This document shows, one piece after another, positions 4,141 to 31,315 of a stretch of DNA of 32,090 bases. The DNA is from Candidatus Kuenenia stuttgartensis (lineage in GTDB: Bacteria > Planctomycetota > Phycisphaerae > Sedimentisphaerales > CAMDDF01), in the NCBI GenBank assembly GCA_945890885.1, contig CAMDDF010000010.1, positions 1 to 32,090 on the forward strand. The letters are read 5' to 3'. Below the pieces are notes generated by a model that was given only the letters and a program-made list of their open reading frames with translations, did no database searches and had not been told where the DNA came from. Positions within the stretch are counted from its first letter, which is position 1. The number at the start of each line of letters is the position of its first letter. The translations under genes were made by a program, and so were the position numbers.

Positions 4141-4995
4141 ATGGCATGGCGACCAAACGATCAATTTATCAGTGGTGAGTTAGATAACTCAGAACACGGC
4201 AGGATTATCGGCTGGATGAAATTTGCCGGGATGAAGGAAGAAGTTGCTTTTGATTTGGAAGGAGACTTTCACAGGGATATCAGAGGCGCTAAAATCCGAC
4301 TCAAAGGTGACGGTCAATCACAGGATCAGGCAAAAGCTGCAAAGTATATGGAGGGATTTTGTATTCTGCAGACAGGTGTGGCTGGCGATATTACCGCAGG
4401 ACTGCCGCCCCATGATTACGGGCTGCCAGGTGAAGGCTATGTCGAATGGTTTTCTGATGATAATGGCAGAGTTGTGCTAGAATTTAGCTCAGATCAGATT
4501 GAGATTTTAACACCGCCGATACCATTCTGTGAATCAGACCCTATCGACAGAAACAAGCAGGCACAGAATATGGCAAAGTTTCTGTGTGGTCTTGCATCAG
4601 ATTTGGGTCTTCCGCAAAGCAATGTTATTGCAGTTGGAAATACCGCTGCTGTTGAAAAAGCAAAGATAGTCTTAGCCAACGATAAAATCCGCGGCATGAA
4701 ACTACTGACGAAGGAAATCCGTGAACAACTACCCCCCTTATACAGTCAGGATGGCAAAGGCGGCAAGGCAATCGCTTATGTAAAGTTTTTCATTGGTTCG
4801 TGGACCTGGCATGCAACGGAATTTGATGGCGAAGATACATTTTTCGGTCTGGTTGAGGGCTTTGAGAAAGAACTGGGATATTTCAGTCTTTCCGAGATGG
4901 AAAACACCAAAGGCCCAATGGGGTTGCCGATAGAGCGAGATTTGCATTTTAAGCCGAAGATGCTTGAAGAAATTGCTCCAGAGATGTTCGGGTAA
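4141..4995 (+). CDS. DUF2958-domain protein with additional N-terminal domain
   Basis: C-terminus [21 protein letters not shown]...[38 protein letters not shown]...[10 protein letters not shown] is typical DUF2958; SD GAGAGGTG. Confidence 0.8.
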
Positions 4996-5294
4996 TGGAT
5001 CGCAATGAAAATACTGAAAGGATAAATATGAGAAAAACAATTACTATTAAGGAACAGTGTTCAGATTCACTGCCTGTCGAGATAAAAGTAAATATCTTGT
5101 CTGAAGGTGGTAAAGTCTGGATTCAACCTGATGGCTTCGGTGAAAAATGCGCCGATGATGGCGAAGGCTTTCCTGTTGGTATCGAGATTTGGCAAGGCAG
5201 ACTTCGTTTGATTGTATTTAACGATATCAACGTGGAAGACCCGATAATCCTCAACCTTGAAAATGCCAGAGAATCCAGCCGCATCAATGCCTGA
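4995..5294 (+). CDS. hypothetical protein
   Basis: 99-aa ORF; internal ATG at 5028 preceded by an AAAGGA-like SD is a plausible alternative start. Co-directional within the operon. Confidence 0.6.
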   Translation: MDRNENTERINMRKTITIKEQCSDSLPVEIKVNILSEGGKVWIQPDGFGEKCADDGEGFPVGIEIWQGRLRLIVFNDINVEDPIILNLENARESSRINA

Positions 5295-5420
5295 TTGGAA
5301 TTGCTCCGATTCACACAGTAACATTTAGTATTACCGCTCCAAATTTTTATCAAACCAATTTACGAAAGGAATCCAGATGAAAACAAATTGCGGAGAATGT
5401 GCGCGCAGTCCTCCCCAAAA

Positions 5421-5448
5421 AGTTAGAAGTTAGAAGTACGAAGTTAGA
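5421..5448. repeat. heptanucleotide tandem repeat, 4 units (AGTTAGA consensus)
   Basis: agttaga agttaga agtacga agttaga. Confidence 0.85.
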
Positions 5449-5488
5449 ATAAAAAAACAACAAATCAAAAATTGAAAGGAAAATTACA

Positions 5489-5731
5489 ATGAGAATTTTA
5501 TTCATTAACAACAATGGTTCCGGCTATGCTGATTATGTCAATATTGCTGAGAATACAACTATCAATCAGTTTTTTGCTATCAAGATGCAGAATCAGCAGG
5601 AAAGTGATTATCTGATCCGTGTCAATCGCCAGCCCGTTCCCAAAGACTATTGTCTTCAGGAAGGCGACCGCGTTACGATAACTCCAACGAAAATTGATGG
5701 TGCGAAAAGAAGTGAGAAGTTAGAAGTGTGA
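5489..5731 (+). CDS. ubiquitin-like beta-grasp protein (Ubl)
   Basis: 80 aa: MRILFINNNGSGYADYVNIAENTTINQFFAIKM...DYLIRVNRQPVPKDYCLQEGDRVTITPTKIDGA...; MoaD/ThiS/Ubl-like spacing and context next to E2/JAB/E1 genes. SD AAAGGA. Confidence 0.7.
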   Translation: MRILFINNNGSGYADYVNIAENTTINQFFAIKMQNQQESDYLIRVNRQPVPKDYCLQEGDRVTITPTKIDGAKRSEKLEV

Positions 5732-5752
5732 AGTGAAAAGTGAAAAGTAAAA
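5711..5752. repeat. heptanucleotide tandem repeat, 6 units
   Basis: agtgaga agttaga agtgtga agtgaaa agtgaaa agtaaaa; overlaps the 3' end of the Ubl gene. Confidence 0.85.
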
Positions 5753-5760
5753 ACTTTTAC

Positions 5761-5801
5761 GGCATCTGCTTATGTTTGATTATAGGCAGGTGCCATTTTT
5801 T
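5761..5801 (+). terminator. intrinsic-terminator-like hairpin between Ubl and E2/RING genes
   Basis: GGCATCTGC / GCAGGTGCC (9 bp, one G-U) followed by aTTTTTT. Confidence 0.65.
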
Positions 5802-5818
5802 ATGCATAGGAGAATTTT

Positions 5819-6838
5819 ATGGAAAATCAAAAAAAACTTATACAGCTGTCAAACATGCTGCTGGACAGTTTATTCGAGCTTAAAAAGGCAAGATTGCGGC
5901 AGATCCAGGATGTTATGGAGGGGTTTGGCACCAGGTGCTCTGATACTACGAAAAACTCCCATCTTTTTTATACAGCAGTTGAAAGAAATTGGCTAAGCAG
6001 TGCAGAGCAGGTCATATCGAGGGTAAGCAGGAACCTCACGGATTTTTCATGTTACCTGCAGAGATTCAAAGAGCTTGTCAATGCTGATGAAACAGTGCTG
6101 CCAAAACTTTCTGATATTTATGCAGAGCTTATCCAGATCGAGCGGGAGTTCGGCGAGATAAAATTCGATTCAAACGAAAAAGCCATCTCTGTAATAACTG
6201 AGCCGATCACTCTAAATGATATCCCGCTGGGACCATTTGAAGTAAAACTGTCTATTGATCAGATAAGCAGGCTCTATAATGATACCCCTTACTCGATAAT
6301 TGCATTAGAACCTAATCCGGCAGGATCAAATGAGGAGGTTACTCATCCGCATGTAAGCTCAGAAAGGCTCTGTGAAGGTGATGGCCATGTTGCTATTCGC
6401 AGCGCTATAGAGCAGGGCAGATTCTGCGACTTTTTCACAATGGCGGTAACTATCCTTCAGACCTACAACCCCGGTAGTCCATACATTTCATTGGATGAAT
6501 GGCAAGGAACATCCTGTTATGACTGCGGCTGCACGGTATCTAATGATGACTGCTACTACTGCGAATATTGCGACAGGGATTACTGCAGCAGTTGCAGCAG
6601 CTATTGCCAGAGGTGCGATACAACGGTTTGCCTGGGGTGTTCTTATGAGTGTCCCTCATGTGATGAGCTGGTCTGTCATAACTGTACCGAAAAATGCAAG
6701 GAATGTGATGGAACGTTCTGCAAGAATTGCTTAGATGAAGAAAGATTATGTCAAAACTGCCAGGAGCAGAGAAAGGAAAGCGAAAATGAAGAACAGGAAC
6801 AGCTCTCAGAAGAATCAAAAGCCGATGCTGAGGTTTAG
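5819..6838 (+). CDS. E2-like domain fused to Cys-rich RING/treble-clef-like C-terminus
   Basis: 339 aa. E2-like core: LGPFEVKL...YSIIALEPNPA...VTHPHVSSERLCEGDGHVAIRSAIEQGRFCDFFTMAVTILQTYNPGSPYISLDEW (HPxx...C). C-terminal run of CxxC knuckles: CYDCGC...CYYCEYCDRDYCSSCSSYCQRCDTTVCLGCSYECPSCDELVCHNCTEKCKECDGTFCKNC. Confidence 0.75.
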   Translation: MENQKKLIQLSNMLLDSLFELKKARLRQIQDVMEGFGTRCSDTTKNSHLFYTAVERNWLSSAEQVISRVSRNLTDFSCYLQRFKELVNADETVLPKLSDIYAELIQIEREFGEIKFDSNEKAISVITEPITLNDIPLGPFEVKLSIDQISRLYNDTPYSIIALEPNPAGSNEEVTHPHVSSERLCEGDGHVAIRSAIEQGRFCDFFTMAVTILQTYNPGSPYISLDEWQGTSCYDCGCTVSNDDCYYCEYCDRDYCSSCSSYCQRCDTTVCLGCSYECPSCDELVCHNCTEKCKECDGTFCKNCLDEERLCQNCQEQRKESENEEQEQLSEESKADAEV

Positions 6839-7544
6839 TCCGACAGCGTGGGCGAAACTACTATTTATGCGTGATGTAACAGATAATGAAGTCGGCGGTT
6901 TCGGGATAACACAGGCAAATGATCTACTGTTTGTTACAGATTTTGCCCTGGTAAAGCAGAGGGTAACTTGTGTTTCAGTATCATTTGAAGATGAGTCTGT
7001 GGCAGACTTTTTTGAGGATCAGGTTGAAGCCGGCAGGAAACCGGAGCAGTTTGCCCGTATCTGGCTGCATACACATCCGGGAGATTCCCCTGAGCCGAGT
7101 ATGACCGATGGGGCAACTTTTGCCAGGGTATTTGGAACCTGCGACTGGTCCGTAATGTGCATTGTGGCGCAGGATAGTGGAACCTTTGCGATGCTGAGAT
7201 TCAATGTCGGACCAGGCGGTGAGGTAAAGATACCTGTTTATGTTGATTACAGCTATGAATTTGATGCCGCCAATTTTGAACAATGGACACAGCAGTATCA
7301 GGCGAATGTGATTGTGGATGAGATTTTCAAGCAGGTAAGTAAGCCTGGACATGCAGTTTCGCATAAACAACCATCTGCCGATCTATTTGGTGAGAAACAG
7401 TCAGCCGGCATTCCACAGTTTATAAGTGAGGATTTACTTTCAGAGATTGACAGGATGGAGCCTTTTGAGCGGGAAGTGTTTATGGAAGAACTGGCTATAA
7501 GAAGCGAATTCTGGGATGAAGAAAGTGAGGTGTCATATGGATAA
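6825..7544 (+). CDS. JAB/JAMM (Mov34/MPN) metallopeptidase; ORF track start 6735, likely start ATG 6825
   Basis: JAMM motif with E in NEVGGFG and HTHPGDSPEPSMTD. Start 6825 (MLRFSPTAWAKLLF) leaves a short overlap with the upstream gene. Confidence 0.85.
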   Translation: MLRFSPTAWAKLLFMRDVTDNEVGGFGITQANDLLFVTDFALVKQRVTCVSVSFEDESVADFFEDQVEAGRKPEQFARIWLHTHPGDSPEPSMTDGATFARVFGTCDWSVMCIVAQDSGTFAMLRFNVGPGGEVKIPVYVDYSYEFDAANFEQWTQQYQANVIVDEIFKQVSKPGHAVSHKQPSADLFGEKQSAGIPQFISEDLLSEIDRMEPFEREVFMEELAIRSEFWDEESEVSYG

Positions 7545-8190
7545 CAGGTTCTCAAGACAGGCAGATATTGTGCCAAGAGAGCGAATACTTGACTGTAAAG
7601 CTACAGTTATTGGTGTTGGCGCTATTGGAAGACAGGTTGCAATACAGCTGGCAGCTGTAGGAGTACCCCAAATCCGGATTATTGATTTTGACCATGTGGA
7701 AATCTCCAATTTGGCATCGCAGGGATATCTCCAGAAAGATTTAGGCAGTCCCAAAGTCGATGCAACTGCTGATTTTTTAAGGCAGATAAACAATGACCTC
7801 AGCGTTGAGATAGTATTTGAACGTTTTAAACGCTCAACACTTTCCGGTACCTGCGTTTTCTGCTGCGTTGATAAAATTGAGACACGCAGGCACATATGGG
7901 ATGCCGTAAAAGACAAGGTAAACTTCTTTGTTGATGGGCGAATGTCTGCTGAAGTTTTGCGTGTAATAACCGCCTGTGATGAAAAAAGCAGACAGTACTA
8001 TCCGCAGACACTCTTTGCCGCCCAGCAGGCCCATACAGGTCCCTGTACAGCTAAAACTACGATTTACTGCGCCAATATAGCGGCAGGTTTTATGCTGGCC
8101 CAGTTTACCAAGTATCTTCGGATGCTGCCGGTTGATCCTGATATCCAGATCAATCTTTTGGCCTGGGAGTTAAATGTCGGCAGTTGTTAA
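7537..8190 (+). CDS. ThiF/MoeB/E1-like adenylyltransferase
   Basis: Rossmann motif VIGVGAIGRQ, DFDHVEISNLASQGY, C-terminal GPCTAKTTIYCANIAAGFMLAQF. ATG at 7537 overlaps the JAB stop. Confidence 0.85.
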   Translation: MDNRFSRQADIVPRERILDCKATVIGVGAIGRQVAIQLAAVGVPQIRIIDFDHVEISNLASQGYLQKDLGSPKVDATADFLRQINNDLSVEIVFERFKRSTLSGTCVFCCVDKIETRRHIWDAVKDKVNFFVDGRMSAEVLRVITACDEKSRQYYPQTLFAAQQAHTGPCTAKTTIYCANIAAGFMLAQFTKYLRMLPVDPDIQINLLAWELNVGSC

Positions 8191-9692: not shown

Positions 9693-9775
9693 TCATGCCA
9701 ATTATTGCGATCGAATTCTACACAATCCACTACCGATAACTTTAAATACTCTCAATTCTTTATTGTCATTATAAA

Positions 9776-9985
9776 ATGACATCAGAAAATTTAAACCAAA
9801 CCATTGAAAAGAGTCTCCATACTCTTGAAGAGATCTGCGAGAATACCCGTGCCATACGTCGTGTGGTAAACAGGATACTTGACCATCTTCATGAGCAGGA
9901 AGCTGCTGAAGAGTTCGATGAGGATTACGACATAGATGAGATCGACTGGGATAAGCTCGATGAACGAGATGATATGTTCAGTTAG
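9776..9985 (+). CDS. small acidic hypothetical protein
   Basis: 69-aa ORF; no SD; AT-rich box CTTTAAATAC about 30 nt upstream of the ATG. Confidence 0.6.
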   Translation: MTSENLNQTIEKSLHTLEEICENTRAIRRVVNRILDHLHEQEAAEEFDEDYDIDEIDWDKLDERDDMFS

Positions 9986-10023: not shown

Positions 10024-10353
10024 ATGCGTAAACCTAATCCAGAAACTGAGACCCTGCTTGGCGATATGAGGAATTCATTAGATCGTATCAAAGCATTGAC
10101 AGCATGGCAGCAGCTCAAGCAATCAGAGCAATATCCGGGCCGCCCGCCGGCATTTGTGATGAGCGATCCAACTTGTACAGACCTCAATAATGAGTATTCC
10201 CGCATTATGGCGACATGTTCGCAATTACAGACGGTTTTTAACGCATCAAAAGTTCCTACAATAACAATTGGGCGAACTCGGCGTGAATATTTCAGGCTTA
10301 AACAGGAATTAAATGCCCTTAATGTGCCGGCACGGCTCAAAGGCCTCTTATAA
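10024..10353 (+). CDS. hypothetical protein
   Basis: 109-aa ORF, leaderless-type start. Confidence 0.6.
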   Translation: MRKPNPETETLLGDMRNSLDRIKALTAWQQLKQSEQYPGRPPAFVMSDPTCTDLNNEYSRIMATCSQLQTVFNASKVPTITIGRTRREYFRLKQELNALNVPARLKGLL

Positions 10354-10355
10354 AG

Positions 10356-10928
10356 ATGGGATGGTTCCATATATTCAAAAGACGCCAGCGTAAAAGGAAA
10401 GCTCACAAATCCAGTCATAACCCCAGCGTCCGCAGTTTAGTTGAAAGGCTCCGATCTGATACTTCTTCGCTGCAGCAGCAATTACAGATGATCCAGACCA
10501 CGGTAGATAAGCACGGTGTTTCACTTAATGAGCATACCACATTATTTGAAGATCACAAAGTGAGAGTTGCAAAACTTGAGCAATTGGTCGCCCAGCCGGC
10601 GACTATTGTACCTGCCGAGAGTCCACGCCTGATTAGTCGCTCCCAAACATCTGCTGAATCACCGCTGTCGCGGCAAAAATATGACGTTAATAACTTTTCA
10701 CCACAGGAAAAACGAATCCTGCAGCTATTCTTTGAGCATCAGGATATGGCACTTTCATATACTGATCTGTCACAGGCACTGGGCAAGAGCCCGTTGACCG
10801 TCAAAAACCAGTTACACGAGATACGACTCAAAGCAGACCTTTTTACAAAGACCATCGGTGCTGATAATCGTAACCGTTTCAAGCTCAGGGACGATGTCAG
10901 ACTTCAAAAGTATCTTAATCTCGGTTAG
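10356..10928 (+). CDS. coiled-coil protein with C-terminal winged-helix/HTH
   Basis: Coiled-coil middle; C-term FSPQEKRILQLFFEHQDMALSYTDLSQALGKSPLTVKNQLHEIRLKADLF looks like a wHTH. Confidence 0.65.
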   Translation: MGWFHIFKRRQRKRKAHKSSHNPSVRSLVERLRSDTSSLQQQLQMIQTTVDKHGVSLNEHTTLFEDHKVRVAKLEQLVAQPATIVPAESPRLISRSQTSAESPLSRQKYDVNNFSPQEKRILQLFFEHQDMALSYTDLSQALGKSPLTVKNQLHEIRLKADLFTKTIGADNRNRFKLRDDVRLQKYLNLG

Positions 10929-10994: not shown

Positions 10995-12086
10995 TCATTG
11001 TTCAAACCTCAGCGACCAGATCGCAGCCAGCACGACTGGGTCAAAGGCCAACTGGATACGATTGGTATAGGTCTTACTAATCTTTGTGGAAATCAAGAGG
11101 ATCAATCCTAAGCTTTGCAGATACGAGAGATTTGAGTAAAAGTGAACATAGCTGAATGGTTCTTCGTTAAGTCCGGCGCTGATTCGACGATATGCCCCAT
11201 AGATACTTTTGACGTAGCTGTCATGCTGTGATGAGGCGGCTCTTAAAATGCAGAGATTCTGGTCATTGAGATCTTTTATAATATCCACCAGAATATCTCG
11301 TCGTGCCGTCTCGAAATGGTCTTTGATCGGGATACCCGGTTCCAACGCCCACTGATACAGCGTTTTTATTGCAACCCGCACATCTGAATTAGTATTTTTG
11401 ACCGTCATTGCGGCGATTTCGTTGATTATTGCGGTGGGTATGCAGCCAAGCCCGATTTTCGCTCTATCGGTTAGTATTTTCTGAAGTTCAAGAGCATTAT
11501 AGCTTTTAAAATGTACAATTTCCGGCTGGAGCGTGCTTTGGGTACTTGCGTCCAGAAGTTGATGGAATTTTGGATCGTTGCTCAGTAGCAGTACCATATA
11601 GTTATTCGGTGAACGGCTTATCAGATAGAGGATATCTTTGTTCTTGTCCTTATTGCTGATCAGGTCGATTTCGTCCAGAATAAAGACCGTCTTTTGGGGA
11701 TGCAGGTCGGTAAAGTTGTACCAGAGTTCATCCAGACTTACTCCCCGCGGACGAACACCAAGGGCGGAGGCGAGGATTCTAAAACTGGTATTGCACTGAC
11801 GGCAATTAACATAAATGAAGTCGAGTTGTTTTCGATTCCCCAGAATCTGCATGAGGTATTTGGCTATTACACTTTTCCCCGACCCTCGGCAGCCGAGGAT
11901 CAAAACATTATTCGCAATGCCGCTGTGCTGGTATCGCAATAAGGCATCGATGACGGGTTTGGCTTCCTCTCTCATCAAGGGTTTGGCCGGAATATAATTA
12001 AAATTGAAGACATTTATATCCCGAATTCGGGATGTGTTTTTTAGCAGATGACGCTGCTTCTCGGCAAGATATTTCTCGATATCCAT
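10995..12086 (-). CDS. Orc1/Cdc6-family AAA+ replication initiator (archaeal type); ORF extends to TTG 12179, likely start ATG 12086
   Basis: NFNYIPAKPLMREEAKPVIDALLRYQHSG..NNVLILGCRGSGKSVIAKYLMQIL, Walker B VFILDEIDL, sensor 1 MVLLLSND, sensor 2 NSDVRVAIKTLYQWA, C-terminal winged-helix-like region. Confidence 0.85.
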   Translation of the reverse strand: MDIEKYLAEKQRHLLKNTSRIRDINVFNFNYIPAKPLMREEAKPVIDALLRYQHSGIANNVLILGCRGSGKSVIAKYLMQILGNRKQLDFIYVNCRQCNTSFRILASALGVRPRGVSLDELWYNFTDLHPQKTVFILDEIDLISNKDKNKDILYLISRSPNNYMVLLLSNDPKFHQLLDASTQSTLQPEIVHFKSYNALELQKILTDRAKIGLGCIPTAIINEIAAMTVKNTNSDVRVAIKTLYQWALEPGIPIKDHFETARRDILVDIIKDLNDQNLCILRAASSQHDSYVKSIYGAYRRISAGLNEEPFSYVHFYSNLSYLQSLGLILLISTKISKTYTNRIQLAFDPVVLAAIWSLRFEQ

Positions 12087-12110
12087 TGGACGCATTAACT
12101 CTACTGGACG

Positions 12111-12138
12111 TATAAACTCTTGCCGGTTTATAAACTTT
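12111..12138 (-). promoter_or_regulatory. archaeal-like promoter of orc1/cdc6
   Basis: Minus strand CCGAAAAGTTTATAAACCGGCAAGAGTTTATACGTCC; TTTATA centre (12113) about 27 nt upstream of ATG 12086. Confidence 0.45.
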
Positions 12139-12251
12139 TCGGTCGCAATAACTGGCAAAAACCCGATTGTGCTGCTCAAAGATGTAAGTTGTGTATTTAT
12201 AGTGATTTGAATTAGGTTACATGCGCCGATAGAGGGGGGGGATGGTTGTGT

Positions 12252-12591
12252 AAGTTGATTCTTGTGAATGGCTTTGAGTGATGTTTTTGGTTTTTGGTTT
12301 GGTGTTTAGTTTGGTTAGGTAGTTGTTTTGTTGAGTAGCGGTGTTGATGGAGTTGTAGTTGCTGATGGTAGGTTTAGATGTTGGATTTAAGGCGTTAATA
12401 AATGAGGGGAATTTTATATAGTCGGTGTGTAAGATAGTTCAGGTTGATTATTGAGTTTTGGTTTTGTTGTTAGTTGGTTATTTGATTTGTGTAGTGGTGT
12501 TGTTTGAGTTGTGATTGCCGATGGAATGAGGTTGTATTTAAGGGTGTAGTAAGTGAGACGAAATTTTTAAATAGTCTGTGTGTTTGATAGT
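12252..12591. repeat. two tandem imperfect G/T-rich repeat units (about 12252-12438 and 12440-12591), candidate origin region
   Basis: Core alignment: gagtagcggtgttgatggagttgtagttgctgatgg...ggatttaaggcgttaataaatgaggggaattttatatagtcggtgtgtaagatagt versus gtgtagtggtgttgtttgagttgtgattgccgatgg...gtatttaagggtgtagtaagtgagacgaaatttttaaatagtctgtgtgtttgatagt. Only about a dozen C in about 350 nt. Confidence 0.6.
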
Positions 12592-12594: not shown

Positions 12595-12996
12595 ATGGAA
12601 GAGCAAGATTGTCGGGCAATAGGGCGGTATAGGCCGTATAGGAGTTGGGGAGAGCAGCAGATAGCGTTGCTGATGGACAGAGAGGGTATTGCATACCAAT
12701 ATGAATATCCGCTTGCGCTGATGGATGATGGGAAAGTGAAATTGTATTATCCTGATTTTACGTTGCCGTGTTATGGACTGATTGTGGAGTACTTTGGTGT
12801 TCAAAATAGTTCAGACTATGAACGTAAGACGAGTAATAAAATGAATGCTTATAGAAAAGCTGGTATTGAAACGATTGTTATCACAAACGATTTTTTTAAG
12901 GGAGACTGGCCGTCGCGAATAATGGGCCAGATTGAGCATGTCCTGCAGTCGCGGGTTGAGCGATTCGGCAGAAGGAATGAAGGCGAAAAGAAGTGA
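12595..12996 (+). CDS. PD-(D/E)xK-like endonuclease (DUF559/Vsr-like fold, tentative)
   Basis: SWGEQQIALLMDREGIAYQYEYPLAL...YYPDFTLPCYGLIVEYFGV...KMNAYRKAGIETIVIT: PDF...(I/V)EY signature. Confidence 0.6.
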   Translation: MEEQDCRAIGRYRPYRSWGEQQIALLMDREGIAYQYEYPLALMDDGKVKLYYPDFTLPCYGLIVEYFGVQNSSDYERKTSNKMNAYRKAGIETIVITNDFFKGDWPSRIMGQIEHVLQSRVERFGRRNEGEKK

Positions 12997-13200
12997 TTTC
13001 TGGTTAGTGGAGAGACAGTGGAGTTTATACGTAGATTGTAGAATGCTAGCTGGACTGGATAGCTGTTGTAACTGCCCAGTGGTGGGAAAAGTATTTAAAT
13101 GGGCGTGTTTTTTGTAGCTGGTGTATTCGTATGAACTCGGGAATAGTTGGTGCTCTGTTACCATAAATGATAGAGTAGTCGTATCTGGTGTCGTATCGAT

Positions 13201-13621
13201 TTACGCATAAACTGTACTCTTTGCGATTGGTTTATGTTTTTTGTATGGTGGGTGAGCAATGGCCAGGATGATCTGGAGCATGAGGGTGAGCCTGCCTGTT
13301 ATGGCGTTTTGCGTCGCCCGCAATGTACCATTACCATGCCCTGTCAAAATAGTAGTTGGCTGGTCGTGAAAGAATTCGATGATGAGCAGCAGTAACTCTT
13401 TGAGCGGCGTAGTTGTTAGCTTTGCTGAAATTGGATCAAGGTCGCTGTATGCAGCATGAAGCTGCGCGTATTCTAAAAGCTCACGAATAGTATTTGTTAT
13501 TTTGGTTGGCCGACTGATGCAGCAGTGATTGCCTCTTTTGGAGTAATCGCATCGAGAACCGTGATTGATTTTGGTCTATCGTAGAATTTCCAATCAGTGT
13601 CTGTTTCTATTTATTTTTCAC
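13201..13621 (-). pseudogene. frameshifted homologue of the 13751 gene, divergent orientation
   Basis: Minus-strand fragments ETDTDWKFYDRPKSITVLDAITPKEAITAASVGQPK and (shifted frame) ITNTIRELLEYAQLHAAYSDLDPISAKLTTTPLKELLLLIIEFF...KSTVYA*. DNA is similar to 13751-13957 on the plus strand. Confidence 0.6.
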
Positions 13622-17524: not shown

Positions 17525-19192
17525 TCACTGAGTACCAGCTGTCGCTTCAAGAGCTGCTTTTCCTTTTTCTGTAAGGTGAGTTAGTGCTTGTCTGCCGATT
17601 CTGGTCGTTTCAATTCGTTCTTCTATGAGTAAAAACTTTAAGGCTGTTGTTTTTAATTTCTGGCCTTGCCGTACTGATAGGCCCAGTCGCTTGTATCGTG
17701 CGGCGACACCGCTTTCTGGAGAGTTCTGGATATCCTTTAGGAAGTATATAAGTGGATTAACAACTGCGGGGCCGGCGGCAGGGAGTTTTTCTTTTGCGGG
17801 GTAAAACGACGAATTTTGCGATGCCGATAATGAAGTGTGCTGCATATGCTCCCGAATATAATCATCGGTGATAGTCCCCTTATCTATGATAAATTCCGGC
17901 ACTTTGACCTGAAATGCCCGAGGGATACGTCCTTGAAGCTTTATAATTGCCTCACCCACTTCCAGGCTGCCGAGTAGGTCTTTTTCCTTATCGAGCAAAA
18001 GGCACTGGGCCATGGCGGTTATATCTGTTTTATGTTTAAGATTCATGCATATCGTTGCGTAGGTATTGCCGAGTGCCGGTAGACTGATCTTTGATGGATG
18101 CTGATCAAGTAGAATAAGGCTTTCTCCGAATTCTCTGATTTCTCTAAAGATAATCTCCATAACAGATTGGCCGCCTACTAAACTCCTTCTTTCATCGGAT
18201 AATAAATGATGGGCCTCCTCAATTAGTACACAATGCCGAAAAGTCTCTCTTTTGTTTTCTGTCATACGCTTGTGATGCAGCCACAACAGCAGAGCCTCTA
18301 CAAAAAACACTTTATCGGATTGCGTAAGCGCATCCAATTCCAGAATTACGGAACTATTGAGGATATGATCCAGACTCTTATTGCTGTGCGTATTAAACAA
18401 TGTATCCATATCGCCAAAACACAGCGATGACAGTGCCCTTAGAGTTGATGACAACCAGCCAGATTCTCTGCCACGCAGATCCATACTTTTGGCCTTTAAA
18501 AGAACATCCTTAAATGTTGGCCAGCTTGTTACAAGATTATCATAAACCCCAGCTTCCTCATAGACTGCGTCGACCGCCTGCTGTAATAAGTATAAGACTC
18601 CATTGCCGAGGCAATAGGAATGGGCGATAACTTCATTTAATTTCTTCAACCATGTCTTGGGGCTGGTACCCTCGGGTGGAATGAGGGGATTAAAAGCAAA
18701 TGGCGTGATATCTCTGCCGATGGTGTAGACCTCAACATCCTTGAATTCAGGTTGTGATATTAGATCTCGATAGTTTCGCTTCCAGTCAAATACCAAAAAA
18801 GGCTTTCCTTTTTTCTTAAGTTCCCTGAGTAAAACAAAACCCACGTTGGTTTTTCCTGCTCCAGATCTGCCCAGTACCGCGACATGTTGTATCCATTCAT
18901 CTTCACGAAGACCAAATTCATAAAGATTTTTGCCTGCATAGTGAACCATACCGATCGGGTACTGACCTTCGGCCTGTTCCTTTGTTGGCGGAATCAGGTC
19001 GGCTTCGGGCTGTTCGAGTTTTTGAGGGATATGTTTTGCCACTGCCAGTTCCAGATACTTTTGGATTTGCTGTTTACCCTCTGTATCTTCTGCGCAGTAT
19101 GCTGCAAATACCTGATCCATTGTGGGGCCGAGGATGGGCTTGAGCTTGAGGCACAATTCTCTGACAAGTGTGGAATTATCCCTGTCCGCCAT
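17525..19192 (-). CDS. HerA/DUF87-type P-loop ATPase with C-terminal winged-helix-like region
   Basis: WIQHVAVLGRSGAGKTNVGFVLLRELKKKGKPFLVFDWKRNYRDL; Walker B HCVLIEEAHHLL; LILLDQHPSKIS. ORF track start 19213. Confidence 0.8.
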   Translation of the reverse strand: MADRDNSTLVRELCLKLKPILGPTMDQVFAAYCAEDTEGKQQIQKYLELAVAKHIPQKLEQPEADLIPPTKEQAEGQYPIGMVHYAGKNLYEFGLREDEWIQHVAVLGRSGAGKTNVGFVLLRELKKKGKPFLVFDWKRNYRDLISQPEFKDVEVYTIGRDITPFAFNPLIPPEGTSPKTWLKKLNEVIAHSYCLGNGVLYLLQQAVDAVYEEAGVYDNLVTSWPTFKDVLLKAKSMDLRGRESGWLSSTLRALSSLCFGDMDTLFNTHSNKSLDHILNSSVILELDALTQSDKVFFVEALLLWLHHKRMTENKRETFRHCVLIEEAHHLLSDERRSLVGGQSVMEIIFREIREFGESLILLDQHPSKISLPALGNTYATICMNLKHKTDITAMAQCLLLDKEKDLLGSLEVGEAIIKLQGRIPRAFQVKVPEFIIDKGTITDDYIREHMQHTSLSASQNSSFYPAKEKLPAAGPAVVNPLIYFLKDIQNSPESGVAARYKRLGLSVRQGQKLKTTALKFLLIEERIETTRIGRQALTHLTEKGKAALEATAGTQ

Positions 19193-19742
19193 AGAGACCC
19201 TCCATACCGGCAAAAAGAGAATATCTTTGTTTTGCGCCTCTGTAGGTGCTGGCAGTCTCGAATAGTTTCTCTCTTAGTTCGGCGGTATCTTTCCAAAATG
19301 CCAGTTCTTCTTCTCGTTTGGCGGATTCGAGTTGGAGCAGCTGTGTTTCCAGACTTGACATTCGTTTGGTTCTGTCAGGATTTCTGTTAATGATAACGCC
19401 GTAAAGCGACCCCTGGATTTGCAGATCACGATGCTGAATTTCATCAATATGTTTTTTGTGAAGCTTGCACCGCTCATAGAATAGATTGGCAAGGTGCTGG
19501 ATGCCGACATGCTGCTGTTTCATCTCATTGCCGAATATCTGCTGTGAGATATTGGCGGTCTCATTGACAATAGGAATAAGTGCCTCCTGCAATAATTCAG
19601 CGTCGGGCTTTAACCTGTCAAAATAGCCGTTGGCAGGCCATGAAAGAACCCGAGGATAAGTTACGTCGATTTTTTGGGAAGCATAGCTGCTGTTTTGTTG
19701 AAAATAAAGGTTCCTCAATTCGTATGTTTTGTTCGGCATCAT
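19176..19742 (-). CDS. conserved hypothetical partner of the HerA-like ATPase
   Basis: Overlaps the ATPase start; likely ATG 19742 with GGAGAG SD (ORF track start 19814). Confidence 0.6.
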   Translation of the reverse strand: MMPNKTYELRNLYFQQNSSYASQKIDVTYPRVLSWPANGYFDRLKPDAELLQEALIPIVNETANISQQIFGNEMKQQHVGIQHLANLFYERCKLHKKHIDEIQHRDLQIQGSLYGVIINRNPDRTKRMSSLETQLLQLESAKREEELAFWKDTAELREKLFETASTYRGAKQRYSLFAGMEGLYGGQG

Positions 19743-20119: not shown

Positions 20120-20728
20120 ATGAGTATGGATTACAAAAAAGCAAACCAGATTGCAGAACGCATCCGAAACGGCGAAAACAGTGTATTATACAAAGAACTT
20201 GCCTTGATGTGTACCCCATATCTTCTCTGGGTCAAAAAGAAGTACAAATTTTATTGCATTCCGGATGATGACGCAAAGCGGATATTGGTGTATGAAGCTG
20301 TAAACGACAGCATTGTACCAATCAGAAAAAATAAGCCATTTACGATTTGCCTGCAAAATGCATTTCGCAACTGCTGCAGGGACTGGATCAAAAATTATCA
20401 CCACAAAAAGCGAGCCAAAATATGGGCTGAGTTTGATTTTAATGACTATGAGACTGCAGGGTATGGCGGCAGTAAGGAGAATCTTTCGCCGGAGGTTGTG
20501 GCATCTGAAGGCGAAATGATTAAAGCTCTGATGGAAGAACTCATGAAGGATGGACAGTTTTCCCGTGAGGTGATTTTTAGAAGGATGAGTGGTGATAGCT
20601 ATGCGGAAATCGCTGAGGCTAAAAAGAAAACGCACAGTGAATGCAAAAATGTCTTTTGGTGCAATTTTGACCATCTGAAGAAGCGATTGACTCGTCGTTT
20701 CCGAAAAGAAATTCTTGACAACCAGTAG
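20120..20728 (+). CDS. ECF-type RNA polymerase sigma factor
   Basis: 202 aa; sigma2-like ...FTICLQNAFRNCCRDWIKNYHHKKRAK... and sigma4-like FSREVIFRRMSGDSYAEIAEAKKKTHSECKNVFWCNFDHLKKRLTRRF. Confidence 0.8.
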   Translation: MSMDYKKANQIAERIRNGENSVLYKELALMCTPYLLWVKKKYKFYCIPDDDAKRILVYEAVNDSIVPIRKNKPFTICLQNAFRNCCRDWIKNYHHKKRAKIWAEFDFNDYETAGYGGSKENLSPEVVASEGEMIKALMEELMKDGQFSREVIFRRMSGDSYAEIAEAKKKTHSECKNVFWCNFDHLKKRLTRRFRKEILDNQ

Positions 20729-20739
20729 AGGAAAATAAA

Positions 20740-21489
20740 ATGAATTGTCCTGAAAAAAAAATTCTGCAGGATTTGGTTGATTGCGAATTATCCGAGGAAC
20801 AGCATATAGAGGTAATTGCACACATAAAATCCTGTGACAAGTGCAGAGGCCAATTAAAACAAATGTTGGTGTTCTATCGGGCGTTGAGTGACGTTGTTGC
20901 CATGGAGGCCTGCCCATCGAAAGATGAACTTGAAAACTTTGCACATGGCAAACTTTCCTTACAGAACTCAGATCGCGTTAGGGAACATATTGTATTATGT
21001 GCACAGTGTGAATCATATGTTCAACTTTTTCAGGCCACTGATGAGCAATTGGCAGAGCAGGCGGAACGCGAAAAAGTGATATTTCAAAAGGCGGCGGCTC
21101 AGGGAAGGGCATATGATGCGGCCAGGGTAATTCTCAAAAAACTTCTGCCGGATAAAGTATCCGTTTTCGATAGTCTATGGGAACATATTTCCGGTGTTTT
21201 GGAAGAAATGCTGGAGAGTAAATCAATAAAAGGTTTATCGTTTGGCGATAGTGGTGAATTTGCCGGGGCTTTGGGTTTTTCCGGTGTGCCTGACCCGCAG
21301 ACGGCTGCGGCTGCCATTATAATTGGTACTACCCTTGCTACTGCATATTCGCTTGGCAACACGGTAATCGCCTCTGACCCTGCTGCAATTAAACAAACGG
21401 TTTCCGATATTGCTGGCAGATTGGGTGCAGGGAAAGAACTTAAGAAAAGACTCGCCGAAACAGTTCCTCTTCATTTTATTGATATATAG
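20740..21489 (+). CDS. putative anti-sigma factor with two zf-HC2 motifs
   Basis: HIKSCDKC and HIVLCAQC; hydrophobic AAAAIIIGTTLATAYSLG segment; immediately downstream of the sigma gene. Confidence 0.75.
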   Translation: MNCPEKKILQDLVDCELSEEQHIEVIAHIKSCDKCRGQLKQMLVFYRALSDVVAMEACPSKDELENFAHGKLSLQNSDRVREHIVLCAQCESYVQLFQATDEQLAEQAEREKVIFQKAAAQGRAYDAARVILKKLLPDKVSVFDSLWEHISGVLEEMLESKSIKGLSFGDSGEFAGALGFSGVPDPQTAAAAIIIGTTLATAYSLGNTVIASDPAAIKQTVSDIAGRLGAGKELKKRLAETVPLHFIDI

Positions 21490-25980: not shown

Positions 25981-27120
25981 ATGGAAAACATTTCTGTTCA
26001 GCATGGGCCTGATCACGTGGAGTTGGCGGATGTCAGGCAAATCGAGCTTGATAAAATTATAGTCTCTGACTTTTGCTGTCGGAATAGCGAAGGTGATGAT
26101 CTGTCTTGCCTTATGGACTCCATTGTGCAAGAGGGGCTTTTACAATATCCCAATGCTATGGATAATGGCGATGGCACCTTTTTGTTGTTGTGCGGGCGTC
26201 GAAGATATTTAGCGTGCAAAACCCTTGGTTGGCAGCGAATACCGTGTGTGGTGAGGCAAAAAGACCAGAGGGATTTGATCTTTATCGCGCTGACGGAGAA
26301 TTTGCAGCGGTTGGCCTCAAATCCTGTTGATGAAGCGATATTTTTAGGTAAAGTCAAGAAAGAATTTGGCTATACCGAAGAGGAGCTTGGCCGTAGAACC
26401 GGCTTTCAACAAAGTGGGGTTAACGAACGGCTGTCTATTCTGGAGTTGCCTCGTGAAATTCTTATGGAAGTGAGCGCCGGTGAAGCTGGTCGGCTTAAGT
26501 TCACGCATGCCGTGGCTTTGGCCTATCTTATGAAAACTAACCGGAGTCAAAAGGAAAGTGAAATCAGAGATCTTGCGGTAAAAGTGAGAAGATGTCAACT
26601 TACGACGATTGAACTGAAAATGCTTGTAAAGTTAATTACCGGTGGTGGGTATGACCGTTTGCCGGACAAACTTAGAATGCTTCTGTTTAACCATAAATAT
26701 ATGACTGCCAAAGTGGCTAATCTTTATTTGGGCATAGAACAGATATGCCAGGAAAAAGAAATGCAGAAGTATCGCATTGTTGTTCCGACAATTAGAACCA
26801 GGATCGCAGATGTTATCTGCAAAGCCGTTAAATCCAAGTTGCTTTATGACAGAATTAAACAGCAAGTAATTGATTTGATTCAACATGAGGCAAAATCAGC
26901 GGATAGCGGTGCAGATGCCGGCTTAAATGTTAAAACAGTAGCACATCATTTTTCCAAGCTGGTAGATGAAATCAATATCAGCCGGGAAAAGATCATCGCA
27001 TTATCTAAAGATAATCCGCAACAGTTGGCAAATTTCAAGAGAATTGCACAAAACCTCATAAAACAGCTGAAAGAGTTGCTGGCAAACGTAGAGCCAGATA
27101 CGAATAATACCGGTAATTAA
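25981..27120 (+). CDS. ParB/RepB/Spo0J-family protein
   Basis: VRQIELDKIIVSDFCCR...LMDSIVQEGLLQYPNAM...LLCGRRRYLACKTLGWQRIPCVV..IALTENLQRLASNPVDEAIF...TEEELGRRTGFQQSGVNERLSILELP. Confidence 0.85.
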   Translation: MENISVQHGPDHVELADVRQIELDKIIVSDFCCRNSEGDDLSCLMDSIVQEGLLQYPNAMDNGDGTFLLLCGRRRYLACKTLGWQRIPCVVRQKDQRDLIFIALTENLQRLASNPVDEAIFLGKVKKEFGYTEEELGRRTGFQQSGVNERLSILELPREILMEVSAGEAGRLKFTHAVALAYLMKTNRSQKESEIRDLAVKVRRCQLTTIELKMLVKLITGGGYDRLPDKLRMLLFNHKYMTAKVANLYLGIEQICQEKEMQKYRIVVPTIRTRIADVICKAVKSKLLYDRIKQQVIDLIQHEAKSADSGADAGLNVKTVAHHFSKLVDEINISREKIIALSKDNPQQLANFKRIAQNLIKQLKELLANVEPDTNNTGN

Positions 27121-28815: not shown

Positions 28816-29238
28816 ATGAGTCCGGTACCATTCAATCCAATTAATCCTCAGCAGTTTTCACAGACCGGTGACAGAGTGACTACTGATGTTCAGCGATATT
28901 GCTCGCCGACAGGACAGATTGCTGACATTATCGTTAACGATCTGACAATCGATTCCAATGGCGTCTGGAAAACTGAGAAACTCAGGGAGTGTATCCCTCC
29001 GCTTGCAGACGGAAGAATACCGGATTCGCCGAAGGATATTCGTGAGTGCTGTCGATGTCAAGGTCTGATCCATGTGGAAAGTTCATATATCTGTCCGGTG
29101 TGTAATTTGACATTTTGCATAGTATGTACAACTGAGTTTTCACCAGATAAAGACAAGTCTATCAGGCTTTGTATACCCTGTGTAGAAAAAGCAACCACAA
29201 CCCCATTACAGAAGTTTTACAAGTGGATAGTAGGTTAA
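28816..29238 (+). CDS. zinc-finger (RING/treble-clef-like) protein
   Basis: CCRCQGLI...YICPVCNLTFCIVCTTEF...RLCIPCVE. Confidence 0.65.
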   Translation: MSPVPFNPINPQQFSQTGDRVTTDVQRYCSPTGQIADIIVNDLTIDSNGVWKTEKLRECIPPLADGRIPDSPKDIRECCRCQGLIHVESSYICPVCNLTFCIVCTTEFSPDKDKSIRLCIPCVEKATTTPLQKFYKWIVG

Positions 29239-29239
29239 T

Positions 29240-31315
29240 ATGGTACTAAAAAATAATGGTAATTCATTTGATAATTCCGGCCATCTAACGCCGCAGCAGA
29301 TACAGCAGATGCTCATGGATCCTGCCATAAGAGCCTGGGACAATACCAAACTCTGGCGTGCAGGCATAGCATTGATGAGAAATCCTTTTGATCATGTGCT
29401 TCAGGCTATCTTTGCGCATTTGCTCAGCAAGCAGCGGGAATTGTATGTTCTTAGCGGCAATCCATACTGGCCCAATTATCCGCCTATCGGCACTATCACT
29501 GGCTCAGCTGGCGACATTAAAGTCGGCAGCATGTTCGCTGGCGATCCCGTCGCCTTTTCTGCAAATCGGCTATTCTGCGGTACAGGCATATTTGCCCGCA
29601 TTGGTGCAGGTAAGAGTTCGTTTCTTGCCGAGCCGATCCGGCAGCTGATTGATCAAGATTATCTTGTGATCGTTTTTCAGCAGAAAGATGAGTACAATAA
29701 TTTTGCAACCGAGCCTGCGCTAGCTGGCAAAGTTCTTCCGCTGCGTGATAGCGAATGTATGATTTCTCCCTTTGAGCCAGCCATCGGTGTCTCCATGCAT
29801 GATCACAACAACTCTGTGATCGACACTATAGGCAGATGCTCTGGCCGCATGTACGCACAGCGACTAACGCTTGATCTTAATGACAAATACTCCAAAAAAC
29901 TGCCCAGTGGTTCTTATACTCCTCTTGATGTACTAATTAATATTCACGAAAATTTTGTACCTGGCAGGGGCTCCGTTGAAGCATATTATAAAGAGAGCAT
30001 GCTTTACGCACTTAGGGAGATACAGAAGACATTCGGTGGTATTTTTGACTACTACAGCAGCGATTTCCTGGAAAAAATCTTTAATCGTACGGGGTTGGTT
30101 GCAATTCAGTCTGGCGCTCCGCTGGCAGCATATACTTTTTTTGTGACCATTTTTATCCAATACATCTATTTGCTGCGAAAAGCCGCCAGGTTTACTGTCG
30201 GAACGTTCAAGAAAATCATCATCATTCTTGAAGATGCGACAATGATTACCGATGAAAAGGAGCTGGGCGGCACCTCTCCACTGACAAATCTGGCGTTTAC
30301 AGCCCGTGCTTATAATATCGGCATTGTTTATATCAATCATACAATTGCCACATCCGTTAGTCAGAAACTACTGTCGAATCTCGAAAACATTTTCCTGCTG
30401 GGACTGTCCGGTGAAGATCTTCGCCGAATTCAGCAATTGCTCAATTGTACGCCTGAACAGGCAAAGGTCATCCCTTTGCTTCAGCCAGGCCAGTTTGTCG
30501 CGTTGATACCATCCATGTGGCCAATGGCCGTATTGGGACAGTTCCCCTACAATCCTTCTCCGAGAAAACTGACTGAGGATGAGCGGCTAAAGATAGTCAG
30601 ATCGTTTCTTGGTACCGTCCGCACTGTAAAATCAGGCAGTCATAGATTGCCAATTATTGTTGTTCCGGCATCATCTGCCGCATCATCTGTACCTTCATTG
30701 AACTCCAACCAGATGCAATTTTTGATTCTTGCGGCAACTGGAAAACCGATGCCGCTGGGTAAGTTGTACGAAGTGATCGGACTTGCTCATCGCGATGGCA
30801 AAAAGATAGTCGATAGTTTGGAGCAGAAGGGCCTTATTCGCATATATGCTTTTTCAACGGGCAAAGTCGGCGGTAAGGTCAGTTTTGTCGAGGTTACTGA
30901 TGCCAGCTGGCGGATTCTGATTGCCAGAGGTTTTTCAAGGTCAAAGTCGCTCACCGGCGGGGGATTCCTGCACAATCTTGCAGCTACGCTCATTAACATT
31001 GCAGAAAAGAAGCGGGGCATGACGGTTAATTTTGAGATTGATCTTAAGGGTGTCAGGATCGATGTGGAATCACGGGACAATAAGAGCGGAAAGAGGGTGT
31101 TTATCAACATTGGTGTATCGAGCCCGCAGCGTGAGGCAGATGTTATTGAGAAGATTTTTGCAATGCCGGTAATGAACGGTAATCGTTTTGTTCTGGTGGG
31201 GCTTGATGGGCCGTTTACAAAGCAGGTAAAGGATATTCTGAAGAAAAAAGGATGGAAGAGCGATGCGTTAAATCGCCTTGAGGTGCGTGTAATTGCAGAT
31301 TTTATTGTCGATTAA
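29240..31315 (+). CDS. TraD/HerA/VirD4-like P-loop ATPase with C-terminal wHTH
   Basis: Walker A ARIGAGKSS, Walker B KIIIILEDA, AYNIGIVYINHTIATS...LLSNLENIFLLGL; C-terminal QMQFLILAATGKPMPLGKLYEVIGLAHRDGKKIVDSLEQKGLI. Confidence 0.75.
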   Translation: MVLKNNGNSFDNSGHLTPQQIQQMLMDPAIRAWDNTKLWRAGIALMRNPFDHVLQAIFAHLLSKQRELYVLSGNPYWPNYPPIGTITGSAGDIKVGSMFAGDPVAFSANRLFCGTGIFARIGAGKSSFLAEPIRQLIDQDYLVIVFQQKDEYNNFATEPALAGKVLPLRDSECMISPFEPAIGVSMHDHNNSVIDTIGRCSGRMYAQRLTLDLNDKYSKKLPSGSYTPLDVLINIHENFVPGRGSVEAYYKESMLYALREIQKTFGGIFDYYSSDFLEKIFNRTGLVAIQSGAPLAAYTFFVTIFIQYIYLLRKAARFTVGTFKKIIIILEDATMITDEKELGGTSPLTNLAFTARAYNIGIVYINHTIATSVSQKLLSNLENIFLLGLSGEDLRRIQQLLNCTPEQAKVIPLLQPGQFVALIPSMWPMAVLGQFPYNPSPRKLTEDERLKIVRSFLGTVRTVKSGSHRLPIIVVPASSAASSVPSLNSNQMQFLILAATGKPMPLGKLYEVIGLAHRDGKKIVDSLEQKGLIRIYAFSTGKVGGKVSFVEVTDASWRILIARGFSRSKSLTGGGFLHNLAATLINIAEKKRGMTVNFEIDLKGVRIDVESRDNKSGKRVFINIGVSSPQREADVIEKIFAMPVMNGNRFVLVGLDGPFTKQVKDILKKKGWKSDALNRLEVRVIADFIVD

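Follow-up and report, generated by a model that had tools for sequence, protein, structure and literature searches.

The machinery that starts replication is considered to be among the deepest differences between bacteria, which rely on DnaA, and archaea and eukaryotes, which rely on Orc1/Cdc6. A gene for an Orc1/Cdc6-like protein was noticed in a 32,090-nt stretch of DNA (hereafter, the window) from a genome of the Planctomycetota, and the locus raises the question of whether such a gene truly belongs to a bacterium and what its role there would be. According to the preliminary description of the window, it implied either a cross-domain replicon or integrated element, or a chimeric contig. 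No report of a bacterial Orc1/Cdc6 was found among the 5.39 million open-access papers searched.

The orc1 gene, its protein and its phylogeny

The orc1/cdc6 gene occupies positions 10,995–12,086 on the minus strand and encodes 363 residues from an ATG at 12,086; the assignment was based on TIGR02928, on AF2 modelling with Foldseek and on the starts of homologues. The open reading frame was intact and genuine, as first described, whereas its span of 10,995–12,179, with a TTG start at 12,179, was revised. The ATG at 12,086 was preferred because homologues begin with MD[IL]xxY, which is the N-terminus in nearly all relatives, and because positions 12,087–12,142 form a non-coding block of promoter and boxes. 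The distance between this block and the ATG varied out of frame among the relatives.

The window protein matched TIGR02928 (orc1/cdc6 family replication initiation protein) with E = 9.8e-39 over positions 4–348 of the 366-position profile. In the NCBIfam ranking, TIGR02928 stood above all other models; five ORC1 models came first, and IstB reached only E = 0.04. The nearest solved structures by sequence were Sulfolobus Cdc6-1/Cdc6-3 (E = 1.8e-22). A match of the AAA_22 type was obtained in Pfam, and those of Cdc6_C and Cdc6_lid were sub-threshold only. The AF2 model, for which the alignment input was 20 natural homologues, had a mean pLDDT of 90.9 and superposed end to end on 2qby, 2v1u, 1fnn and 1w5t, winged helix and lid included. 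Moreover, ranks 1–44 of the Foldseek search against the PDB were all Cdc6/Orc1/ORC chains, aligned over the full length. The AAA+ core was invariant in 20 related sequences, termed type A, with Walker A (G65xRGxGK71), Walker B (L137-D138-E139), sensor 1 (L168xN170) and sensor 2 (R237). The initiator-specific helical insertion (ISM) was present as helices 101–109 and 118–128 between strands 89–94 and 133–138, aligning with the corresponding segment of 2qby, and the C-terminal winged helix was present in the model. The window gene encodes a full-length Orc1/Cdc6 relative composed of an AAA+ domain with ISM, a lid and a winged helix, and the AAA+ motifs and winged-helix-like region of the preliminary description were confirmed. 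The type-A proteins scored 117–139 bits against TIGR02928, for which the curated cut-off is 181 bits. Because these scores were below the cut-off, type A appears to be a divergent branch of the Orc1/Cdc6 initiator family, outside its core subfamily. The Cdc6 of the archaeal plasmid pPO1 scored 127 bits, likewise under the cut-off.

In the maximum-likelihood tree, the 20 type-A proteins formed one clade (99/98). The Cdc6 of pPO1 (Picrophilus) was its sister with support of 100/100, though on a long branch, and both were nested in archaeal Orc1/Cdc6, far from the DnaA outgroup. The tree included no TnsC/TniB/IstB sequences; these were ruled out as the closest family by the profile and Foldseek rankings. 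Kinship with bacterial transposition or MoxR-type ATPases, which had been named at the outset as the contrary outcome, was not found, since profile and fold searches group the protein with Orc1/Cdc6. Derivation of the module from archaeal plasmids of the pPO1 kind is the best explanation. A second bacterial Orc1/Cdc6 clade, type B (7 sequences), lay elsewhere in the archaeal tree and scored 235–243 bits against TIGR02928, over the cut-off. The type-B orc1 loci (L008, L036, L037, L039, L043 and L006) represent an independent lineage with canonical archaeal ORBs. Further divergent Orc1/Cdc6 proteins of Planctomycetota were observed outside types A and B in L031 (168 bits against TIGR02928), L114 (137 bits) and L118.

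Host genome, distribution and element genes

The window makes up the whole of a 32-kb contig (C10); the genome to which it belongs measures 2.14 Mb, is 96% complete and has a bacterial 16S rRNA. The preliminary description had suggested searching for the same gene in other bacterial genomes, and type-A homologues were found in 12 of the 347 genomes of the window's class at E < 1e-70, as well as in further classes of Planctomycetota. The type-A clade of 20 sequences is scattered sporadically over the phylum. An alignment-based scan of GTDB r220 contigs gave relatives, and a single-protein scan of the same contigs gave none. The named matches among these contigs were nearly all Planctomycetota MAGs, the exceptions being label conflicts and one 23% DPANN relative. 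A contig labelled Actinomycetes (L056, CSMAG_2756) appears identical to a contig of G063, a genome of the window's class by GTDB, and its NCBI label looks wrong. No type-A relatives were found in the viral contigs and phages searched.

In one genome (G025), a type-A homologue was located inside a contiguous, single-contig Planctomycetota chromosome of 4.25 Mb. COG4299, oxidoreductase, sigma and FecR-type genes lay on one side of the homologue, and pheT and lon lay on the other side past the integrase (names read from translations). Genes of both window halves had homologues in the same G025 region. The tetranucleotide affinity to the host was 0.62 and 0.64 for the window halves, and that of the host contigs was slightly higher (0.66–0.89). 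The GC content of the elements followed that of their hosts with r = 0.97 over 0.40 to 0.68, a correlation that is partly circular, composition being used in binning. A chimeric or misbinned contig is unlikely because of the bacterial 16S rRNA and the homologue within the 4.25-Mb chromosome. Of the two possibilities first raised, the cross-domain replicon or integrated element was upheld by the G025 chromosome, the G025 homologues of both window halves and their equal host affinity, and the same evidence spoke against the chimeric contig. No direct sign of an extrachromosomal form was seen, and the window contig ended without overlap. A search for integration ends in G025 showed a tRNA-Asp next to an integrase, without a second copy of an att site. 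In G025 (L084, 7,480–15,717), a CRISPR-Cas-like gene set with an array separates this integrase from the orc1 module.

The genes conserved alongside orc1 encode an endonuclease I-like protein, a HerA/DUF87 ATPase together with the partner upstream of it, and a membrane coiled-coil protein, the last of which was not found in the window. The HerA/DUF87-family ATPase (17,525–19,213, minus strand; PF01935, E = 3e-10) had homologues in at least 8 element loci and is conserved as a partner of both type-A and type-B orc1. The first gene of its operon (19,176–19,742, minus strand) had its start revised by homology to L048. The small nuclease (12,595–12,996, plus strand), of the Phage_endo_I or PD-(D/E)XK-like kind, matched PF05367 at E = 5e-5, under its cut-off; it had homologues in 8 loci and is a conserved neighbour of the Orc1–HerA module. 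HerA, nuclease and coiled-coil genes also accompany the type-B orc1 of L018. Three small genes on the plus strand between 9,777 and 10,928 (9,777–9,985, 10,024–10,353 and 10,356–10,928), the last with a C-terminal winged-helix-like part in its product, had homologues upstream of orc1 in L048 and L011 and were linked to orc1 in the closest relatives. Integrases were found near some relatives. The window additions to the conserved companions were a ParB-family partition protein (25,981–27,120, plus strand; PF02195 and PF17762, with TIGR00180 above its cut-off) and a second DUF87/HerA-like ATPase, which together with a small upstream gene spans 28,816–31,315 on the plus strand, both of these with homologues near the G025 element.

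A PRTRC-like ubiquitin-type cassette was located at 4,141–8,190 on the plus strand, with DUF2958, UBL (5,489–5,731), a gene at 5,819–6,838, JAB (6,735–7,544) and ThiF/E1 (7,516–8,190). This cassette was present in some relatives only and is conserved in the elements of G025, G052 and G042. A defence function was rejected, PADLOC giving only generic HerA/DndH and E1-like matches. A RhuM–Fic fusion protein (PF13310 and PF02661) was observed at 1,157–2,161. At 20,120–21,489, a weak sigma-70-like gene is followed by an anti-sigma-like gene, without homologues in the related elements examined; the sigma and anti-sigma pair of the preliminary description is plausible here but weak, the best NCBIfam sigma match having E = 0.018.

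Initiator-type boxes, promoters and the putative origin

In all type-A loci examined, the sequence just before the orc1 start codon contained a pair of 11-nt boxes (consensus AGTTTATGCGT) repeated at a spacing of 18 bp, and the box is family-specific, reading (G)GAGTTTAYGCGTG. In the window, the tandem pair (GAGTTAATGCGTCC and GAGTTTATACGTCC; 18-bp repeat) lies at 12,088–12,119 on the minus strand and touches the start codon, an arrangement conserved in 21 non-redundant loci. A weight matrix trained solely on these upstream tandem boxes was used for scanning elsewhere. Convergent box pairs, 80–290 nt apart and no more than 800 nt after orc1, were found in 13 of 17 loci, against an expectation of 0.03 from dinucleotide shuffling; 395 further stretches from these loci and 768 stretches of host DNA contained none. 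In the type-A loci, the two boxes of a convergent pair stand 100–260 bp from each other. The pair was not found by the matrix scan in L048, L051 and L053. The boxes were clustered at orc1 and were not scattered over many promoters. The extended boxes read GTGTGTGGAGTTTAYGCGTG, frequently with a G-rich end. The GC content of the enclosed core was lower than that of the locus by at least about 0.10 in 12 of 16 loci, and the core often contained TTCWATATTGAAAA; AT-enrichment of the core was absent in the window (GC 0.43 vs 0.43 for the surroundings), L049 and L050.

The putative origin of the window is located at 13,010–13,225, as indicated by the box scores and the counterpart in relatives. Its convergent boxes (13,022–13,032 on the plus strand and 13,203–13,213 on the minus strand) are 181 bp apart, both score at least 15, and they form the only convergent pair in the 32 kb. 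The pair lies 936–1,117 nt from orc1, past the nuclease gene and on the orc1 promoter side, not directly after orc1; the window orc1 is inverted relative to its neighbours as arranged in L048 and L011. In terms of sequence layout, the convergent-box arrangement of type A appears to be that of an archaeal oriC. The canonical archaeal ORB occurred in the window no more often than by chance, and the TRF search for tandem-repeat iterons gave nothing at the origin. In the type-B loci, boxes reading TTCCA(C/G)TGGAA(A)C, which is the canonical archaeal ORB (PMC4164010), flank an AT-rich segment that immediately precedes orc1. The box type therefore switches with the initiator type, as would be expected for replicator–initiator pairs. 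In many type-A loci (e.g., L056, L054 and L061), the origin-like region contains a palindrome, CCACTnnnnAGTGG, that is also repeated upstream of the BRE/TATA-like box, which points to a likely second binding protein. The preliminary description mentioned none of the origin-like inverted boxes, the putatively autoregulatory boxes and the archaeal-type promoters, nor how widespread the family is.

A BRE/TATA-like promoter of orc1 (CCGAAAAGTTTATAAA) was located at 12,127–12,142 on the minus strand; its spacing was kept in 21 of 21 loci, with the box at 36–42 nt to the ATG. Another such box (ACGAAATTTTTAAATA), at 12,558–12,573 on the plus strand, precedes the nuclease start codon by 21 nt. When a matrix trained on the orc1 sites was applied to other genes, most loci had a like element ahead of the HerA operon, at about −61 to −66, and ahead of the membrane coiled-coil gene, at −38/−39. 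In the window, such boxes precede the genes at 9,777 and 10,024, the nuclease and the HerA operon, and boxes were recorded at 9,733 and 9,987. Enrichment over all element genes was not seen (7 per 32 kb in the window; host mean 3, range 0–8), and the fractions of genes with BRE/TATA at leaderless distance were similar, without element-wide excess. The promoter claim is therefore confined to the core genes. TBP and TFB were found in 0 of the 13 hosts searched, with archaeal controls positive, and these predicted sites may be read by a bacterial sigma factor. An extremely G/T-rich, skewed stretch at 12,284–12,591 (plus strand), made of two degenerate copies of ~155 bp, carries the nuclease promoter; its local score was 101 vs a shuffle maximum of 43.

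Proposed function and comparison with known systems

The orc1 gene probably encodes the protein that starts replication of a mobile element, either plasmid or integrative, resident in Planctomycetota; this protein would recognise its own box and use an origin with the layout seen in the archaeal plasmid pPO1. Box binding and origin activity are inferred here from sequence. The type-A Orc1 would bind the (G)GAGTTTAYGCGTG boxes, and the convergent pair would mark off the core of the origin as the site of initiator assembly and DNA opening. Negative autoregulation would come from the tandem pair, which covers the start and promoter of orc1. A non-MCM ring would follow, namely the HerA-family ATPase of the element (as helicase or translocase) or the host DnaB. 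Genuine MCM was not found in the 13 hosts, in which only background AAA+ matches of at most 40 bits occurred, as in MCM-free controls. Because the hosts are without MCM, the leading candidate for a ring ATPase partner of Orc1 is the HerA-family ATPase encoded near it in many elements; otherwise, there would be a hand-over to the host DnaB. Against the initiator reading stand the absence of TBP, TFB and genuine MCM from the hosts, the window core without AT-enrichment, the position of the window pair past the nuclease gene, the lack of a convergent pair in L048, L051 and L053, and the lack of a direct sign of an extrachromosomal form. A broader reading is tentative and somewhat doubtful: Planctomycetota may harbour working archaeal-type replicons with Orc1/Cdc6, a cognate inverted-box origin and BRE/TATA-type promoters, without TBP, TFB or MCM, with the initiator acting on a ring other than MCM (host DnaB or HerA-family ATPase). 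The results suggest that a whole archaeal-type replication module was adopted by bacteria. If this is true, a conserved archaeal-kind initiator and origin pair on mobile DNA across a bacterial phylum would indicate that the divide is crossable by a whole functional unit. It would make a long-standing question testable, i.e., whether Orc1/Cdc6 works with a bacterial helicase or needs MCM, and it would bear on ideas of viral or plasmid replication systems displacing cellular ones.

The protein may instead descend from Orc1 but act as a regulator or maintenance factor, in the manner of haloarchaeal Orc1-2, with boxes serving transcription or partition rather than replication start. Haloferax Orc1-2, which shares these domains, is documented not to act as an initiator (PMC9738581); every locus has tandem boxes that overlap its orc1 promoter, the window has a ParB gene, and the hosts are without MCM. 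This is considered unlikely, as a convergent pair flanking a mostly AT-rich, gene-free stretch, common to pPO1, suits an origin rather than a regulon, and the boxes are concentrated at orc1. An archaeal replicon with contigs wrongly binned with Planctomycetota MAGs is very improbable and largely refuted already by the homologue within the single 4.25-Mb bacterial contig, the GTDB r220 matches (bar the label conflicts and the DPANN relative) and the GC correlation with the host. The archaeal type of the protein, box layout and promoters and the absence of TBP/TFB from the bins would fit such an error, and the compositional match carries the circularity described above.

An inert relic of archaeal transfer, carried but non-working in bacteria, would agree with the absence of archaeal transcription and replication machinery from the hosts. 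However, 20 diverged sequences across Planctomycetota classes retain the catalytic and wing residues, the boxes and the promoter, which requires selection in bacteria and makes a relic less probable again. The least probable reading is a bacterial transposition or mobilisation AAA+ protein (TnsC/TniB/IstB-like) that merely resembles Orc1. Its location in a mobile element and the AAA_22-type match point in that direction, but a transposase is absent beside the gene, the winged helix and lid align end to end with Cdc6/Orc1, and both the NCBIfam ranking and the nesting within archaeal Orc1/Cdc6 are contrary to it.

The type-A module resembles several known systems to different degrees. Haloferax Orc1-2 shares with type A the AAA+ domain with ISM and the wH, and is a family member acting as a regulator; it regulates the DNA-damage response, whereas type A is tied to an origin-like box pair (PMC9738581). 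Origins in archaea lie beside orc1/cdc6 and consist of an AT-rich region with ORBs on its flanks (PMC4010727, PMC5333045). As in the chromosomal oriC of Pyrococcus, Sulfolobus and haloarchaea, the type-A initiator gene lies beside a region flanked by inverted boxes (PMC4010727, PMC5333045); in contrast to these archaea, the type-A hosts have no MCM, and the type-A box differs from the common archaeal ORB TCCA[CG]T[TG]GAAA (PMC4164010). Type-B Orc1/Cdc6 of Planctomycetota (L008, L036, L037 and L043) has in common with type A the bacterial host and the BRE/TATA promoter, and in L018 also related HerA, nuclease and coiled-coil neighbours. Type B differs in its separate Orc1 clade, its scores above the TIGR02928 cut-off and its canonical ORB, TTCCA(C/G)TGGAA.

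The plasmid pPO1 of Picrophilus oshimae, a Cdc6–oriC replicon as is the pTA1 kind, resembles type A in that convergent boxes flank a core beside cdc6, with BRE/TATA and a box touching the ATG. It differs in its archaeal host, its box letters (GTGTGTGTRNAWTGCAC) and a protein identity of only ~31%, and this 7.6-kb plasmid is without the ubiquitin cassette and other genes of the window element. Like the type-A elements, pPO1 encodes a COG0433 (HerA/FtsK-like) ATPase (PMC3177234); phmmer gave no match between it and the element HerA at the default reporting threshold, and the kinship stands at the COG level from that source. In pPO1, the members of a convergent 32-nt pair stand 183 nt from each other on either side of a very AT-rich core adjoining cdc6, and a box touches the cdc6 ATG after a BRE/TATA sequence. 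This region was regarded by the authors of pPO1 as the likely oriC and the Cdc6 as the initiator (PMC3177234).
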